DNA of 35,743 nt, taken from Pseudomonadota bacterium (GTDB lineage: Bacteria; Desulfobacterota; Desulfobulbia; Desulfobulbales; SURF-16). Of the stretch, positions 6,502 to 23,200 are shown piece after piece. The stretch covers positions 1 to 35,743 of the forward strand of contig JAHIVT010000034.1 in assembly GCA_018816555.1 (NCBI GenBank), read 5' to 3'. The position numbers and the translations under genes are program-made. Position 1 is the stretch's first letter, and each line of letters begins with the position of its first letter. The notes below the pieces were generated by a model. It did no database searches. It worked only from the letters and a program-made list of their open reading frames with translations, and was not told the DNA's origin.

Positions 6502-8337
6502 ATGCAAAAAATGTCTTCCACTGTTTCTGATGTAAAATCAATGATCAGGCCTCAACTCCGGCAAGAGTTGCGCATGCAGTCTGAAAAATGCATTGAGTGC
6601 AAGCTGTGCCGCAAGGAATGTCATTTTTTGCAGAAATACGGCTCGCCCAAGCACATTGCCGATACCTATGATCCCGCCTCTCCCAAAGACCGGATGATGC
6701 CCTTTGAGTGCAGTCTCTGCCAGCTTTGTGCCGCGGTCTGTCCGGTCAAGATTAATCCCGCCGCCATGTTCCTGGAAATGCGTCGTGAGGCCGTGAGCCG
6801 TGGGGTGCAGGATTTCTCCGACTATGGCGTCATCATGAATTATGAAAAACGGGGGGCCTCCAGGCGCTATTCATACTATGGCCTGCCGGAGAACTGTGAA
6901 ACCGTTTTGTTTCCCGGCTGCACTCTGCCCGGCACCCGACCGGATAAGGTCAAGGCGCTTTTTGATCATTTAGAGCAGACAATCCCGAGTCTCGGTATTG
7001 TCTTGGACTGCTGCACCAAACCCTCCCATGATCTGGGCCGGGAAAAACATTTTCAGGACATGTTCAGTGAGATGAAAGATTATCTCCTGCAGCACGGGGT
7101 GAAAAACGTGCTGGTTGCCTGCCCGAACTGCTACCGCGTTTTTAAACAGTATGGCGAGGGGCTGCAGGTGAAAACCGTCTACGAGCATCTGGTCGCAACA
7201 TCCTTGCCGCAGACGGCAAACATTGCCGGGATGGTCACGGTACATGACCCTTGCGGCACCAGAAATGAGGAGCAGATCCACGCTGTTATCCGGCGGCTTG
7301 CCACCGAGAAATCACTGACAATTGAGGAAATGAAACACCATGGCGTAAAAACCATCTGCTGTGGGGAGGGAGGGTCGGTGGGTTGCGTGAATGCCGATTT
7401 TTCCAAAGGCTGGGGCGTGCGGCGTAAAGGTGAAGCAGGTGGAGTCAGGATTCTCACCTATTGTGCGGGATGCGCCAATTTTCTGGGGGGGCTCAATCCC
7501 ACCAGCCATATCCTGGATTTACTCTTTGAGCCTGAGGCGACCCTGGCAGGTACGGTGAAAATTTCCAAGGCGCCCTGGACCTACCTTAACCGCCTGCGTC
7601 TCAAGAGTTATTTTAAAAAGCATATCAATGCTGCTGTATCCAGGGAAAGGACCTTTACCGGCGAAGAACAGTCCAGGGGGGCAATACTGAAACGTCTGGC
7701 CATTTTGCTGGCCCTGGTCGCGGTCATTGTTGCCGTGCGCATGAGCGGCGCCACGCAATATCTGGAACAGGAGAAACTGCGCGCCCTGATTGCAGGGTAC
7801 GGAGTGCTGGCACCGGTCATCTACATGCTGAGCTATGCGGTGGCGCCTGCGCTGTTTCTGCCCGGTCTGCCGCTGACCATAGTCGGCGGCATCCTTTTCG
7901 GTCCGTTCTGGGGGGTTGTCTACACCATCATCAGCGCAACTGTCGGCGCCAGCGTGGCCTTTCTGGTTTCCCGCTATATCGGCAGGGACTGGATCGAGAG
8001 CAAGCTCCGAAGCCCACGCTGGAAAAAGCTTGATGAGATGGTGGAAAACCACGGCTGGAAAGCGGTGGCCTTTACCCGGCTGATCCCGCTTTTCCCCTTT
8101 AATCTCCTTAATTATGCCTTTGGCCTCACCAGGGTAAAATTTCTTCATTATGTATTGGCAACTTTCTTCTGCATGCTGCCGGCCTGCATTGCCTATATCG
8201 TGTTTTCCAGCTCGCTGCTCAATGTCCTGAGAGGACAGATAACCCTTGAGTTTCTGATCGGCATTGCCCTGATTATCGGGGTATCGCTCATACCCGCGGC
8301 TTACAAAAAAATAAAGGCACGCAGAGCGGAAAAGTAA
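6502..8337 (+). CDS. Fe-S/CCG-domain oxidoreductase fused to a TVP38/TMEM64 (VTT) membrane domain
   Basis: A 611-residue fusion. The N-terminus has two 4Fe-4S ferredoxin motifs (Cys30/33/36/40 and Cys70/73/76/80). Two CCG domains of the HdrD/GlpC/LldE type follow (Cys170-171 with Cys207/210, and Cys286-287 with Cys321/324). From about residue 395 there is a hydrophobic VTT (DedA/TVP38/TMEM64) domain with the diagnostic FLPGLPLTIVGGILFG and FTRLIPLFPFNLLNYAFGL re-entrant motifs. CCG proteins move electrons to or from thiol, disulfide or quinone partners; VTT proteins are membrane proteins linked to small-solute or lipid transport. The fusion puts an electron-transfer module on a membrane carrier. 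It heads a four-gene operon; the next gene starts 17 bases later. The ribosome site is weak (GAGATGG). Confidence 0.88.
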   Translation: MQKMSSTVSDVKSMIRPQLRQELRMQSEKCIECKLCRKECHFLQKYGSPKHIADTYDPASPKDRMMPFECSLCQLCAAVCPVKINPAAMFLEMRREAVSRGVQDFSDYGVIMNYEKRGASRRYSYYGLPENCETVLFPGCTLPGTRPDKVKALFDHLEQTIPSLGIVLDCCTKPSHDLGREKHFQDMFSEMKDYLLQHGVKNVLVACPNCYRVFKQYGEGLQVKTVYEHLVATSLPQTANIAGMVTVHDPCGTRNEEQIHAVIRRLATEKSLTIEEMKHHGVKTICCGEGGSVGCVNADFSKGWGVRRKGEAGGVRILTYCAGCANFLGGLNPTSHILDLLFEPEATLAGTVKISKAPWTYLNRLRLKSYFKKHINAAVSRERTFTGEEQSRGAILKRLAILLALVAVIVAVRMSGATQYLEQEKLRALIAGYGVLAPVIYMLSYAVAPALFLPGLPLTIVGGILFGPFWGVVYTIISATVGASVAFLVSRYIGRDWIESKLRSPRWKKLDEMVENHGWKAVAFTRLIPLFPFNLLNYAFGLTRVKFLHYVLATFFCMLPACIAYIVFSSSLLNVLRGQITLEFLIGIALIIGVSLIPAAYKKIKARRAEK

Positions 8338-8354
8338 TTGCGCGAGAATTATAA

Positions 8355-9020
8355 GTGAATAGAAATACGATGAATGGTACCGCCATAACACCAACAGTCA
8401 CATACAACTTCAAAAAATCTCTCATTACCAAGGCAGTGATTGTGGCCGCCGTCACCATACTTGCCGCCACGGTTTTTTACATTATTCGCCGCTATTTTTA
8501 TATCCTTGATGCCTATGTGTATACCGGGGAGTTTCATCTGCTTTTCATCACGAAAAACATGCATATGACGAAGCTCGAACTTTTTACCGAATACCTGAAA
8601 CCAATGAGTTTTCTCATGGCCCTGCCCATCTGTCTAACAGGGACCTGTTATGCCGGGTTGGACCCGTCATCCTCGCAGCAGGTGCTGATCCAGGCAACCA
8701 CTGATGCCTTTGGCGCACCGATGAGCTTTCTTTTCGATTTTCTTGGTTTTTTTGTCCTCGGGCTCCTGTCCTTCGGCATCGGCTCCCTGATTTTAGGGGA
8801 TATCGTGCCGCTTGCGGTGAGGAATTGCTACTCCGATTATCTGGACAAGCTGAAGAAACCCGCCTTGTTTATTTTTCCCATCGCTTTTGCCCTGCCCTTT
8901 GTGCCGATCATCATAACCTCGCTGGTCGGCGCCATTGCCAAGGTCCCTTTTGCGCGTATAGTGCAATTTATGCTGGCTGGCTTCATGCTGCGAACCCTTG
9001 TCCTGATGCTCTTTCCGTGA
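8355..9020 (+). CDS. Polytopic membrane protein of unknown function
   Basis: A 221-residue protein, probably starting at GTG (an ATG at 8370 is possible). It has about four hydrophobic segments: around residues 26-43, 86-100, 123-148 and 171-220. The amphipathic C-terminus (PIAFALPFVPIIITSLVGA) ends close to the stop, somewhat like a half VTT domain, but I do not recognise the family with certainty. The middle contains ICLTGTCYAGLDPSS, with two Cys facing a likely loop. It sits 17 bases after the Fe-S/VTT fusion and 52 bases before the YdjY-like gene on the same strand, so it is probably a membrane subunit of the same system. The gene order recalls the E. coli ydjXYZ arrangement, in which two TVP38-type proteins flank YdjY. 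Confidence 0.6.
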   Translation: MNRNTMNGTAITPTVTYNFKKSLITKAVIVAAVTILAATVFYIIRRYFYILDAYVYTGEFHLLFITKNMHMTKLELFTEYLKPMSFLMALPICLTGTCYAGLDPSSSQQVLIQATTDAFGAPMSFLFDFLGFFVLGLLSFGIGSLILGDIVPLAVRNCYSDYLDKLKKPALFIFPIAFALPFVPIIITSLVGAIAKVPFARIVQFMLAGFMLRTLVLMLFP

Positions 9021-9072
9021 AAGGAGAGATCAGGCGGGCAAGTGGCTTTTCAATCATAATAAGGAGAACAAG

Positions 9073-9942
9073 ATGAAAACAAATAAAGAGTGCAAATGTT
9101 CCTGCTGCACCGACTCCAGATCAGTGCTTCTCGGCAGGACGGCTGATGGCAACCATGACACAATTAATACAGGCGGCATGACCAGGGGAGAATTTCTCAA
9201 GGTGGTCGGCATCGGCATCCTGGGTCTCAGCACCATACCCGGCACCAAGGCCTTTGCCGCAGCTGAGAAAAATGACAATATCAAAATGCTCCAGGGAAAA
9301 AACGACCGCATGATTGTTGATCTGGAAAACAAGGAAATCCGGGTTTCCACCGACATCACCAAGGATCCGTCCAAACCATCGGTCATTGACTGGGGCAGGA
9401 GATTTCAGGCTTTTTTCGGCTGCTATGGCGGCAAGATGGAAAAGTTTTTCGTGTTCAGCACCGATATTTCCCGTACGAATATCGATAATGCCATCAAGGA
9501 AATCGGCATCAAGTCCCGCCGCCAGATTCCCATGAATGAGGTGGAACAGCGCAAAGGATTGAAAGCCACCACCACGATGGCCGATTATCTGGACGGCGAT
9601 CCGGTCATTGTCATCGTGCGGTTCGTCAAGGATGGTAAAATCGTTGAAACAGCCCTGGAAGACCTGATTGAAGAAAAAATCATTGTCGATGGCGGGGAGG
9701 TCATAAAGCCCTATACCCCGCACTGGGTTTACCACGGCACCGGCGAGGCGATCACCTTTCCCTCCGGCTGCTGCGTCTGTCCTTCCGACTGCAACGGCGG
9801 CATCATTACCGACAACGTCCTGCCCTTGAAGACCACGGAAAACTACTACCGGGTCAACTGGGAGCGGATGCCCCCAGTGGGTTCCAAAGCTGAGATTATC
9901 ATCAAATCTATTTACAGTTCGCCAAAACACGCAACAATCTGA
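9073..9942 (+). CDS. YdjY-like exported Cys-containing protein
   Basis: A 289-residue protein with a Cys-rich cytoplasmic head (Cys7, 9, 11, 12). A Tat-like export motif TRGEFLK follows at 37-43, with only one Arg of the usual pair, then a hydrophobic segment (44-57) and a likely cleavage after KAFA. The mature part (about 75-270) resembles the YdjY domain: VDLENKEIRV near the start, HWVYHGTGEAITFPSG, and a Cys cluster GCCVCPSDCNGG (Cys233, 234, 236, 240) that could bind a metal or cluster. YdjY neighbours TVP38/TMEM64 proteins in E. coli, matching the VTT fusion upstream here. A good AAGGAG site precedes the ATG, and the MerB-like gene starts 15 bases after the stop. I infer a periplasmic redox or metal-handling partner; the activity is unknown. 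Confidence 0.65.
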   Translation: MKTNKECKCSCCTDSRSVLLGRTADGNHDTINTGGMTRGEFLKVVGIGILGLSTIPGTKAFAAAEKNDNIKMLQGKNDRMIVDLENKEIRVSTDITKDPSKPSVIDWGRRFQAFFGCYGGKMEKFFVFSTDISRTNIDNAIKEIGIKSRRQIPMNEVEQRKGLKATTTMADYLDGDPVIVIVRFVKDGKIVETALEDLIEEKIIVDGGEVIKPYTPHWVYHGTGEAITFPSGCCVCPSDCNGGIITDNVLPLKTTENYYRVNWERMPPVGSKAEIIIKSIYSSPKHATI

Positions 9943-9957
9943 TGAGCCATCACTGCC

Positions 9958-10596
9958 ATGCAGGGAACAACCTATTCAGACAGTCTCGGAGACATCCAAA
10001 GCATCGCCTCACGCCTGACCGCGGTTGAACAGCTGGTCAGAGACAGCGTCATGGAGCAGATAATCGCCAAAGGGGGGCCGGTGACCGCATTCGATCTGAA
10101 ACAGGTTGCGACCCTTCACAGCCTGGACGTGGAGGAGCAGCTTGCCGCCCTGATCAAAAAACGGACCATTGTGGTGAGCACGGCAGGATTCATCACCTTT
10201 TCTTACCCGGTTTCAGCCCTGCCCACTCATCACCGCGTGACCCTGGCGGACGGCAGGTCGTTTCATGCCATGTGCGCGGTGGATGCCCTCGGCACCGCCT
10301 TCACCTTCAACCAGAATATCATGGTTGACTCCCAGTGCAGCCGCTGTCGGCAGCCGGTGCACCTGGCAATATGTGATCAGCAGATTATGGTGCTGCAGCC
10401 CGCCGAAACCCGTGTGCTCCACGTAGATCTGAGCCTATACGACAACTGGTCGGGAAACTGCTGAAACATCATGAACTTCTTCTGTACGAAGAAGCATTAT
10501 GAAGAGTGGGTGGCCAAGATGCAGGTCTCGCAAAAGCATTTCTGTCTGACCGCGGCTGAGGCGCTGCAGGTGGCGCAAATGCTGTTTTCCCGGTAG
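9958..10596 (+). CDS. merB: MerB-family organomercurial lyase, candidate selenoprotein (UGA-Sec at codon 169)
   Basis: MerB cleaves the carbon-mercury bond of organomercurials, giving the hydrocarbon and Hg(II). Here the frame meets TGA at 10462-10464 but continues open to TAG at 10594-10596. Read through, it gives 212 residues, the same length as plasmid R831b MerB. A winged-helix N-terminus (about 15-80) precedes the lyase fold. Cys106 and Asp109 (MCAVDALG) match catalytic Cys96 and Asp99, and Cys127 matches structural Cys117. Residue 169, the UGA, lies 63 after Cys106, as Cys159 does after Cys96, so Sec would replace the second catalytic cysteine. The read-through part continues the alignment: the FF pair and then a Trp in YEEW. 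A SECIS-like hairpin follows at once. Stopping at 10464 would leave an inactive 168-residue stub. The alternative is a recent nonsense mutation. Confidence 0.85.
10462..10501 (+). other. Candidate bacterial SECIS element in the merB-like gene
   Basis: After the UGA (10462-10464), CTTCTTC (10476-10482) and GAAGAAG (10488-10494) form a perfect 7-bp stem with loop TGTAC. A lower stem, CATCATG (10467-10473) with CATTATG (10495-10501), has one mismatch and is separated by an AA bulge. The loop begins 18 bases after the UGA and has G as its second base. This fits the published bacterial SECIS rule: a loop 16-37 bases from the UGA with a G among its first two bases. Confidence 0.8.
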
Positions 10597-13198: not shown

Positions 13199-13963
13199 AT
13201 GAATAAACTTCCACAAATCACGATCTTTTTCTGGATCATGAAAATATGCGCCACCACCCTTGGCGAGACCGGCGGAGATCTGTTGTCCATGACTCTGAAC
13301 GTCGGCTATGCTGTCAGTTCCATCATTCTGGTCGGTATGTTTCTGGCAACCCTTATCTCGCAACTGGTTTCAAGAAAATTTCATCCACTGCTTTACTGGT
13401 CGGTAATTTTGATGACAAGCATGGCTGGAACAACCATGTCGGACTATATGGATCGAACCCTGGGATTGGGTTATGCTAAAGGATCCATGATTCTGGTGTC
13501 GATTCTGCTGACGATTTTTGCGCTCTGGCGTTTGAGCGGAAAATCACTTTCGGTCACCAACATCTCTACTCCCAGTGAGGAGCTGCTGTACTGGACCGCG
13601 ATTCTGTTTTCCAACACCCTGGGAACCGCCCTGGGGGACTTTCTGGCCGATCAGTCAGGATTGGGATACTGCGGCGGCGCACTCTTGATCATCAGTTTGC
13701 TCGCACTGGTGGCCTTTGCAGCATTTTATTCCGGTATTTCCAGGGTATTTCTGTTCTGGATAGCTTTTGTCCTCACCCGTCCTCTCGGTGCCACAGTGGG
13801 CGATTTTTTCACCAAGCCGCTGGATGTCGGAGGCATCGGATTCGGGACTGTAGGAACATCAATCGTCCTTTTTTCCGTGCTCGGCACTCTCGTTGCCTAT
13901 ACCACCTGGAAAACCAGATGGACAAATGCAGTTGTCGAGGAAGATTACAGGATGTTAAGGTAG
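13199..13963 (+). CDS. COG4705 membrane protein with four internal repeats
   Basis: A 254-residue inner-membrane protein with about eight hydrophobic segments. Four copies of a pattern (T/S)-x-x-G-(x)3-(G/S)-D-(aromatic/Leu) are visible: TTLGETGGDLL near 19, SMAGTTMSDYM near 76, NTLGTALGDFL near 139 and RPLGATVGDFF near 194. Each contributes one conserved Asp inside or at the end of a helix, and two are followed by GLGYxxG. This four-fold symmetry with buried acids suggests a cation or proton transporter, but no activity is known to me for the family. It follows the PepSY gene and is followed by a regulator/kinase pair, an association I have seen described for this family with two-component systems. 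No strong ribosome site (GAGAGGAT, spacing about 5). Confidence 0.78.
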   Translation: MNKLPQITIFFWIMKICATTLGETGGDLLSMTLNVGYAVSSIILVGMFLATLISQLVSRKFHPLLYWSVILMTSMAGTTMSDYMDRTLGLGYAKGSMILVSILLTIFALWRLSGKSLSVTNISTPSEELLYWTAILFSNTLGTALGDFLADQSGLGYCGGALLIISLLALVAFAAFYSGISRVFLFWIAFVLTRPLGATVGDFFTKPLDVGGIGFGTVGTSIVLFSVLGTLVAYTTWKTRWTNAVVEEDYRMLR

Positions 13964-20214: not shown

Positions 20215-23200
20215 TTACGGGAGTGTTACGGTTAAATCATCATCTTGGGTGGTAGAGAAGGTGGTCTTGATATGAGCAGCGTCAATGGCCTCGACGATGA
20301 TGTTATAGCTGCGGCCGCCGCGGGCGTAAGTATGGCTGATGCCGTTTGCCAGCTCGACCTGCGGGTTGGTGGAAACGGTACGGGTCCGGTCGCCCCAGTA
20401 GATGTAGGCGCGAACCACGCTGGCATCAAGGGTCGGGGCGGTCAGGGTAGCCTGGTTGCCGTTAACTGCCGTGACGAAATCAATAACCGCTGCTTCCGGT
20501 TCAACGATCTTGGCCGTGGCGGTTACGCTGTCTGCGCGCTTCTCACCGGTAACGCTGTCGGTGGCGTAAACCACTGCCTGGTAGCTTCCGGCTGCCGGAT
20601 ACTGGACGATAACCTTATCGGTACCGTTGCCGCCTTGGGAAACGCCGCTGCCGTCGCTGAAATCAAACTCGTAGCTGCAGCCGTTCGGACAGAAGGAGCG
20701 GCTGGCGTTCAGTTCAACTACCCTGTCGGTATCCATGCTTGACAGGGCGCTGAGCTGGGGAACCACCTGGGGCAGTACCCAGTAGTTCTTAGTGGAGAAG
20801 CCGTTGTCGCCATGGCAGGCGTTGGCTGAACAGGTGCCCGGATTGCCCAGGGGATCCGCTGTGTAGGTGAAGGCAAAGGGGCTGCCCGTATCGGAGACGG
20901 ATCCGAAGTCGATGTTGCCGGCGCCGTCGTCATGGCAGGTGGTACACTTGCCGTAACCTGCGGCAACGTGGCGGTTATGGGAGCCGGTGATACGGGTGTT
21001 CAGATAGTCCACGTATTCGGCCCGGCTGGTCTTGGGGCCATCCTGGGTGGTGATGATCGTGCCGTCATAGCTTGAGTTGGCCGGGGTGAAATCAGCCTCC
21101 CACAGGGCCTCGGAACGGTCGATACTGCGCATGGTTGTTTTGCCCGCGCCGTTGAAAACCAGCAGCTGAATGGTGCGTCCATTGCCTTGGGCAGCCTTGG
21201 CGAACAGGGTGGGATGGAAGTCGGTCAACTGATAGTCAGCGACATCGTCTCCGTAAACGCCGTCGGCATCGTAGTCATCCATGTTGACCTTGGTAAAGGG
21301 CACGGCGTCGGTTGCCGCATAGGAGATCTGCAGGTCACGGCCTTTGAGCTCGTAGGTGCCGTTGTAAAAACCCTTGTCCGGACCGTGGCAGTCGGTGCAG
21401 CCGCCAGCGCCCCAGGCATTCCTGGCTGGGTTGACATTGTGATTGACCTTGAACATGGCGCCCATGAAGGAGAGCTTGAGTTTGTCCTGGGCTCCTGTGC
21501 CGTTGGGATCAAGGTTGATGCCCACGGTGGGCAGGTATGCTTTCAAGGCTGCCCGCTGGGCAGCGACTTCAGCTGCGTCCACCACGCCGTCAGCAGTGAG
21601 GGCCGGCAGATTTGCTAAAGCCATGGCGTCGCGCACATGGGATGGGTTGACCGGGTCCATGCCGCCGGTCTGGCCGTCAGCGTTGATGTCCACATAGCCG
21701 CTAGCGCCGCCATTGACAAAATCCTCATCCTTGTCGCGCCAGAACATGGTGATCAGGGCGTTGGTGCGGATCAGTTTGTTGCCTTGCCAGGCCAGGGCCA
21801 GGTTGTTTTCCATGGTGCGTTCGACATAGAGATTCTCATGATCGGTGACGCGTCCTTCGGCGTCAGTACCGGTGGAATCGACCATGGCGCCGCCGGTGCC
21901 CCAGTCGTACAGACTCTCGGCGCCGTCCGGTCCGTGACCGAGTTTACGGACATGACAGCCGGAGCAGTCAATGATGTCGAGATGGCTGGCGTTGGCCAAA
22001 CCGTTGCGGCCGGTCTGCACGATGAGGGAGGTCAGGCCGAGGGCCGCATGGGTGGGAGTGGGATCAACGGCGCCGTAATTATTGGTAACAGGCACTGCGC
22101 TGTGGCAGCCGGAGCAGCCCTTGGAGGCGACGCCGTCATTGTTGTTCCACAGGGAGCTGTAGGGAGCATTACCCTTGGCCGGATCATGTCCCAGTACCGC
22201 GTTGGCCTGGCCGGTCCAGTTGTCCGGCGCAGGTCTGCCTCCTATATCAACACCGTCCGTGCGCTCGTGGCAGCCCAGGCAGCCGATGGCGCCGTGGACG
22301 TCGGCCTCGTAAGGTACGCCCCAGCTGTCGCCGCGTTTCTTCCAGTCAACGGCGTGCATGTCGGAGTGGCAGGAGGAACAGTTCTCGCTGACCGTGGGCT
22401 GGATGCGGTCCCTGACCATGCTGGTCATCCTGATGGTCCAGCCTCTGGAGGATGAGTAGTATGGTTCGATTGAATCAGGGTAGTAGTTGACCGTGGTACC
22501 GGTGACAACCTCGCCGATGCCTGCGCCGGCTACCCGGGAGGCGTCGAATTTACCGGTGCGGATGGCCTCTTTCCTGGCTTCCCAGGAGTAGCCTTCGAGA
22601 TGGCACATGAGGCAGTCCATCTCCAGGACGCCCGTTTGGCTGTAATCCTGGGGTAGAACCTCGCCAAGTTCGCCGTCATTGTCTTCATCGTACTGATCAA
22701 TAAAGTAGTTGAAGGCGTTAACACCGGTCAGGGGTGTTGTGCGCAGCTCCTGGCGGGGGGTGGTGGCGAGATTGGTACCGGGCGCAAGGGGCAGGTACTC
22801 CATGGCGCCGCCGCCGACATGGCATTCGCCGCAGTCGCGCATCTGGCCGGCAATGGAGAGATCAACCTTGGCCTTGAAGGCTGCTTCCGTACCGAAGTCC
22901 ACCGGCGCGGTGAAATTCACCGGGGCCTGGGTGCGGGGTTTGACCGCAAAGGTCGCCTTGATATTGGTGGAGACGCCGTTGGTGTCAAGCCGGCTGTTGT
23001 ATTCATCGACCAGGTTGTCTCCGGCACTGTAATCACCGCTTGAATCGACATCCTCGTAGTATTTGCCTTTCAGACTAGGGTCGAAAGTGGACATGTCATT
23101 GGGGAAAAGCTTCGCCAACTGGCGAGCTGAAGGCGGTCACCATTTGCCGACGTGGCCTGGGGACTGAACCCATGGTTTGCCTTTGGTGGCAATGGAGTTC

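Follow-up and report, generated by a model that had tools for sequence, protein, structure and literature searches.

The window analysed here is a complete stretch of 35,743 nucleotides (contig JAHIVT010000034.1, assembly GCA_018816555.1) from a Pseudomonadota bacterium that GTDB places in the Desulfobulbales. On its forward strand, genes for an iron-sulphur/CCG/VTT fusion protein, a second VTT-like membrane protein and a YdjY-domain protein precede saoL, which begins 15 bases after the end of the YdjY gene (Table 1). The saoL frame runs from 9958 to 10461, meets a TGA at 10462-10464 and then stays open for 43 codons up to a TAG at 10594-10596. Its product has 212 residues if the UGA is decoded as selenocysteine (Sec) and 168 if the UGA is a stop. 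An earlier note on this DNA had given the same frame, codon positions and protein length, all of which were correct on re-reading. Because standard gene models stop at the UGA, the selenoenzyme is truncated in annotation.

Table 1. Features of the saoL locus (positions in the window; strand; basis of the assignment).
Feature	Position	Strand	Basis
4Fe-4S dicluster/CCG/VTT fusion protein	6502..8337	+	Pfam VTT 107.7, Fer4_8 38.0 and CCG 34.1 bits, all over cut-off
Second VTT-like membrane protein	8355..9020	+	Pfam VTT 17.9 bits, under the cut-off of 33.9
YdjY-domain protein	9073..9942	+	NF040466 84.5 bits, cut-off 50
saoL, predicted Sec-containing MerB-like protein, 212 residues with UGA as Sec	9958..10596	+	Pfam MerB, NF040728, MerB fold
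Cys106 codon, MerB Cys96 column	10273..10275	+	Alignment
Asp109 codon, MerB Asp99 column	10282..10284	+	Alignment
Cys127 codon, MerB Cys117 column	10336..10338	+	Alignment
Cys168 codon, immediately before the putative Sec (motif CU)	10459..10461	+	9/9 SaoL rows
UGA codon, residue 169, MerB Cys159 column, very likely read as Sec	10462..10464	+	25-row alignment and translations
SECIS-like hairpin, 7-bp stem, loop UGUAC	10476..10494	+	Predicted fold, pairing over 9 sequences

Taken alone, the open frame after the UGA is no more than chance would provide, with a probability of about 0.12 at the local base composition; the homology past the UGA, judged by sequence comparison, is more than that. The Pfam MerB match spans the codon (residues 86-210, 4e-29, 101.6 bits against a cut-off of 27). 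Both the UGA and the MNFF tail that follows it are kept in all eight distinct SaoL homologues, which are 37-85% identical to the window protein, so that close relatives neither end at this codon nor continue with random ones. The nine distinct SaoL sequences were the window, L024, L004, L025-L029 and L031, after removal of the duplicates L003 (identical to L024) and L030 (identical to L026); L031 was entered with 156 residues, its N-terminal part being out of frame. When the 43 post-UGA codons were compared with those of the 85% identical relative, 13 had changed synonymously and 7 non-synonymously, and beyond the stop the ungapped identity to this relative dropped to 28%.

Of the 25 rows of an alignment, 22 had UGA in column 169 and the remaining three (L046, L049 and MerB 1s6l) had Cys, which is the Cys/UGA alternation at the Cys159 column that the earlier note had proposed looking for. 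Only Cys106, Cys127, column 169 and Phe175 were invariant. From the loci found by searching 395 genomes with the SaoL model, L032, L033, L035, L040, L044, L047, L048 and L051-L058 were omitted from this alignment; some of their genomes recur in the 15-locus check described below. The source genome (4.93 Mb, 183 contigs, 97% complete) encodes SelA (623 bits), SelB (372 bits), SelD (380 bits) and tRNA-Sec (71.5 bits), each over cut-off, and does not lack the Sec genes whose absence would have spoken against the earlier note. All four Sec-gene controls gave below-cut-off matches in unrelated genomes, and so only over-cut-off scores were counted. The selD gene of the source genome (L060, G000:C145:35773-36699) itself has one in-frame TGA within the SelD match. 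The alignment and the Sec machinery together support the reading of saoL as a gene for a MerB-like protein whose Cys159 column is occupied by Sec, and UGA169 is very likely decoded as selenocysteine.

The fold prediction places a hairpin downstream of the UGA, with 10476-10482 paired to 10488-10494. The 7-bp stem described in the earlier note was thus recovered, but its distance of 18 bases from the UGA applies to the start of the loop; the stem itself begins 11 nt after the UGA. Across the nine SaoL sequences 98.4% of the hairpin cells pair, compared with 48-68% when the hairpin is slid. At one pair, three of the nine have U-A in place of C-G, with both sides at third codon positions, and L031 has one broken pair and only 4 strict pairs in the recoding analysis. 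The hairpin was rejected as proof of Sec, since a stem as long was also reached when the same window peptide was recoded synonymously, in 479 of 3000 trials. The count of pairs changed on both sides was reached by 391 of 500 shuffles and the covariation score by 8 of 500. When 34 post-UGA stretches were put through the recoding test, 9 lay at or below 5% (the second UGA of L005, L036, L050 and L039; the first UGA of L037, L039, L041, L043 and L045) and the rest did not. The hairpin is therefore compatible with the Sec reading without being decisive. Near the saoL locus, Rfam gave four matches, all below the gathering score. Promoter-like sites (7, against 5.2 in shuffles) and terminator-like sites (12, against 6.1 with sd 2.7) were not used as evidence.

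The window protein matched the NCBIfam model NF040728 (MerB-like organometallic lyase SaoL) over model positions 1-159 of 159, with 171.4 bits against a cut-off of 140; the match stops at residue 168, immediately before the UGA. The MerB models NF009710 and NF033555 gave 69.2 and 63.2 bits, far below their cut-offs of 193 and 200. In excerpts of PMC13188914, SaoL is a known selenoprotein family with the motif CU, the SAO operon is described and the family is traced to Haft and Gwadz 2023; an excerpt of PMC9312934 already lists an alkylmercury lyase MerB-like selenoprotein. The novelty of the protein was accordingly overstated in the earlier note: the window gene is a new SaoL member with a different operon, in a family that is itself already named.

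In the alignment Cys106, Asp109, Cys127 and U169 each lie 10 positions beyond Cys96, Asp99, Cys117 and Cys159 of MerB (numbered as in 1s6l by counting along the alignment), and the FF and Trp positions that follow Cys159 are retained at the same offset, bearing out the spacing noticed from the sequence alone. A pairwise phmmer alignment set U169 against Cys160 by opening a gap; the 25-row alignment assigns it to the Cys159 column. All nine SaoL rows keep the three MerB active-site columns and the Asp. Cys168 is likewise present in all nine and is absent from the other 16 rows.

An AlphaFold2 model of SaoL built from seven sequences reached a pLDDT of 86 and a pTM of 0.84, with low confidence near U169 (mean pLDDT 56 for residues 161-170). 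All 11 Foldseek matches with E ≤ 0.001 were MerB entries. VIA Z scores with seven MerB crystal entries were 19.2-21.4 over 192-201 residues; for the SaoL model with 1s6l, VIA Z was 12.8, and 8.9 in the next row. The read-through protein is thus modelled as a MerB fold over nearly its full length. SaoL resembles MerB (PDB 1s6l, 3f2f and 5c17) in this predicted fold and in the Cys96, Asp99, Cys117 and Cys159 columns. In contrast to MerB, it would carry Sec in place of Cys159 with an additional Cys before it, is only 19-24% identical and falls under both MerB cut-offs.

The partners of saoL in the window differ from those in the SAO operon. In L029 (genome G528) the genes of the SAO operon, SaoE-C-X-B-P-A, are each over cut-off and are followed by saoL. 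The window protein is of the same type as this operon-terminal SaoL and shares with SAO-linked SaoL a score above the curated cut-off, the CU motif with Sec and the predicted MerB fold. Unlike in the SAO-linked case, the source genome gave no match for the SaoB marker, no ABC transporter gene was recognised among the scanned window proteins, and the neighbours are the Fe-S/CCG-VTT, VTT and YdjY proteins. Among the nine SaoL genomes searched, three (G391, G526 and G528) gave a SaoB match. The other six, the source genome among them, all have YdjY (next to saoL in five), along with Fe-S/CCG and VTT membrane proteins; YdjY is present in G526 as well. With SaoB as the sole marker of SAO and nine genomes as a small sample, the distribution suggests that the window SaoL belongs to a group with another membrane module in place of the SAO ABC transporter. 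The locus represents SaoL without the SAO transporter marker, and its other partners hint at which process the enzyme supplies.

The gene order of the window is identical in G018, a genome of the same family as the source. In L025 (Desulfuromonadales) and L028 (Halodesulfovibrio) the module is fused or re-ordered, and on the short contig of G001/L024 the end of YdjY precedes saoL. In G267 a VTT protein and a window-type YdjY share one contig while saoL lies on another (L096, G267:C1; G267:C54), which shows that assemblies may separate the module from saoL. The YdjY-domain protein has a C-x2-CPSDC motif conserved in a five-row alignment and, by eye, a hydrophobic, signal-like N-terminal segment; a twin-arginine start, also seen by eye, is present in the L025 YdjY protein and absent from the window protein. 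VTT proteins alongside a YdjY-domain protein also make up the ydjX-ydjY-ydjZ gene group of E. coli, and a YdjY-domain match was found in the E. coli control genome. In contrast to that group, one VTT of the window is part of a fusion with Fe-S and CCG domains, and saoL lies downstream. Elsewhere in the window, a long open frame on the reverse strand (20215-23118) has many CxxCH motifs by eye and is multihaem cytochrome-like, with no NCBIfam match at 1e-4; a forward-strand protein (13199-13963) has four DUF347 repeats and is followed by a response regulator and a histidine kinase.

We consider it probable (roughly 0.7), on these comparisons, that saoL encodes a selenocysteine form of the MerB fold that acts as an organometal lyase, in a module replacing the SAO transporter; MerB-like catalysis by SaoL is likely. 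MerB holds the metal with two thiols, and the carbon leaving group receives its proton from Asp99. By analogy, the thiolate of Cys106 and the selenolate of Sec169 would attack and hold the metal of the organometal, and Asp109 would protonate the carbon leaving group, after which the metal would be handed on. Cys168 may aid metal release, guard the selenium or be bonded to Sec169 through Se-S in the resting enzyme. The substrate may be organomercury, another organometal or a metalloid, and the tuning to methylmercury or another metal proposed in the earlier note would be one possibility. The module at 6502-9942 would take the place of the SAO ABC transporter in this branch: its Fe-S/CCG part could provide electrons that re-open the Se-S bond or reduce the released metal, and the VTT and YdjY proteins could handle the metal at the membrane or move the product. 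The presence of hgcA was ruled out as an explanation of the window gene, the best HgcA match in the source genome having 65.9 bits against a cut-off of 275, and no link of this genome to methylmercury production was seen. HgcA was over cut-off in four of the nine SaoL genomes (G267, G525, G526 and G527).

A selenoprotein need not be a lyase. Cys168-Sec169 together with Cys106 and Cys127 could form a site that binds and hands off a metal or metalloid, or a redox switch, serving the Fe-S/CCG-VTT-YdjY module. The confinement of the vicinal CU motif to SaoL rows, the redox and membrane proteins next door and the below-cut-off scores with the MerB models all point this way. Such a role is nevertheless harder to reconcile with the retention of all three active-site columns and the Asp throughout the SaoL rows and with a MerB fold extending over nearly the whole chain, and we regard it as rather unlikely, though credible. 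The same scores, of 69 and 63 bits, disfavour a classical organomercurial lyase of a mer operon that carries Sec incidentally. Fold and active-site columns would suit such an enzyme, but no mer gene was recognised among the scanned window proteins, and this reading appears very improbable.

Equally slim are the chances that the UGA is an ordinary stop and the gene a truncated, decaying or 168-residue MerB relative. An open run of 43 codons is not rare by chance and the hairpin does not settle the matter, both of which would allow it. Against it stand the same UGA and conserved tail in every distinct homologue, the Cys that other relatives have in this column, the excess of synonymous changes past the UGA and the Sec genes of the genome.

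In the survey of 395 genomes of the phylum, the SaoL model matched in 52 but exceeded its cut-off in only 3. Many of the weaker matches are interrupted by an in-frame TGA. Full translation of twelve of these proteins put UGA in the Cys96 column as well as in the Cys159 column, and at 15 of 15 further loci both columns became Trp when TGA was set to Trp and Cys when it was set to Cys. UGA therefore occupies both catalytic columns in 27 of the 27 two-TGA loci inspected (L005, L006, L007, L036-L039, L041-L043, L045, L050, L070-L072, L075, L077, L079, L081 and L084-L091). Exactly two TGA codons were found at 40 loci in 31 of the 395 genomes (from 97 match rows), and one of these loci, in G154, also has a TAA; 24 of the 27 inspected loci belong to this set. 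These counts come from draft genomes, some of them 8-9% contaminated.

The double-UGA proteins fall into two clades, both distinct from SaoL. Clade A has Glu in the Asp99 column and stands beside Cys/Cys proteins (support 99/97), whereas clade B, apart from clade A, has Asp there. After the second UGA, GGUC lies between complementary bases in 12 of 12 sequences, and a hairpin was predicted in all five that were folded, for which the peptide partly accounts. None of the six double-UGA proteins scanned reached an NCBIfam cut-off, and ten open frames near five of the loci, a small sample, showed no common family. No description of a two-Sec MerB was found in the literature searched, a body without Haft and Gwadz 2023 and Haft and Tolstoy 2025.

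HgcA was over cut-off in 20 of the 31 double-UGA genomes and in 93 of the 364 others (Fisher p 1.6e-5). Stratification by family, which covered only genomes with a printed family and excluded G505 and G517 (whose matches are split in two) from the double-Sec group, weakened this to an odds ratio of 3.6 (z 2.0), and much of the association therefore follows taxonomy. The other 11 of the 31 genomes have no HgcA over cut-off, two of them (G200 and G220) having partial matches of 257 and 241 bits.

Tentatively, and at somewhat less than even odds, we propose that Sec entered the catalytic-thiol positions of the MerB superfamily in these anaerobes on more than one occasion. SaoL would have one Sec, here with the Fe-S/CCG-VTT-YdjY module and without the SAO ABC transporter, and the two other clades would have replaced both thiols (Cys96 and Cys159), forming an unnamed, widespread enzyme acting on methylmercury or related organometals in hosts many of which also make methylmercury (hgcA). 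If this is true, enzymes that grip the metal through selenium at both positions would mark an extreme of mercury chemistry in nature, and they would offer a testable candidate for methylmercury handling by anaerobes. Of these results, the different operon and the double-Sec relatives deserve to be followed up.

A MerR-type-regulator-like open frame, recognised by eye (L045:682-1330), lies directly before a double-UGA MerB-like gene. The MerB-like protein L034 (G179:C171) has Cys at the Cys96 column and UGA, in the motif TU, at the Cys159 column, and groups with MerB rather than with SaoL at modest support (81/90).
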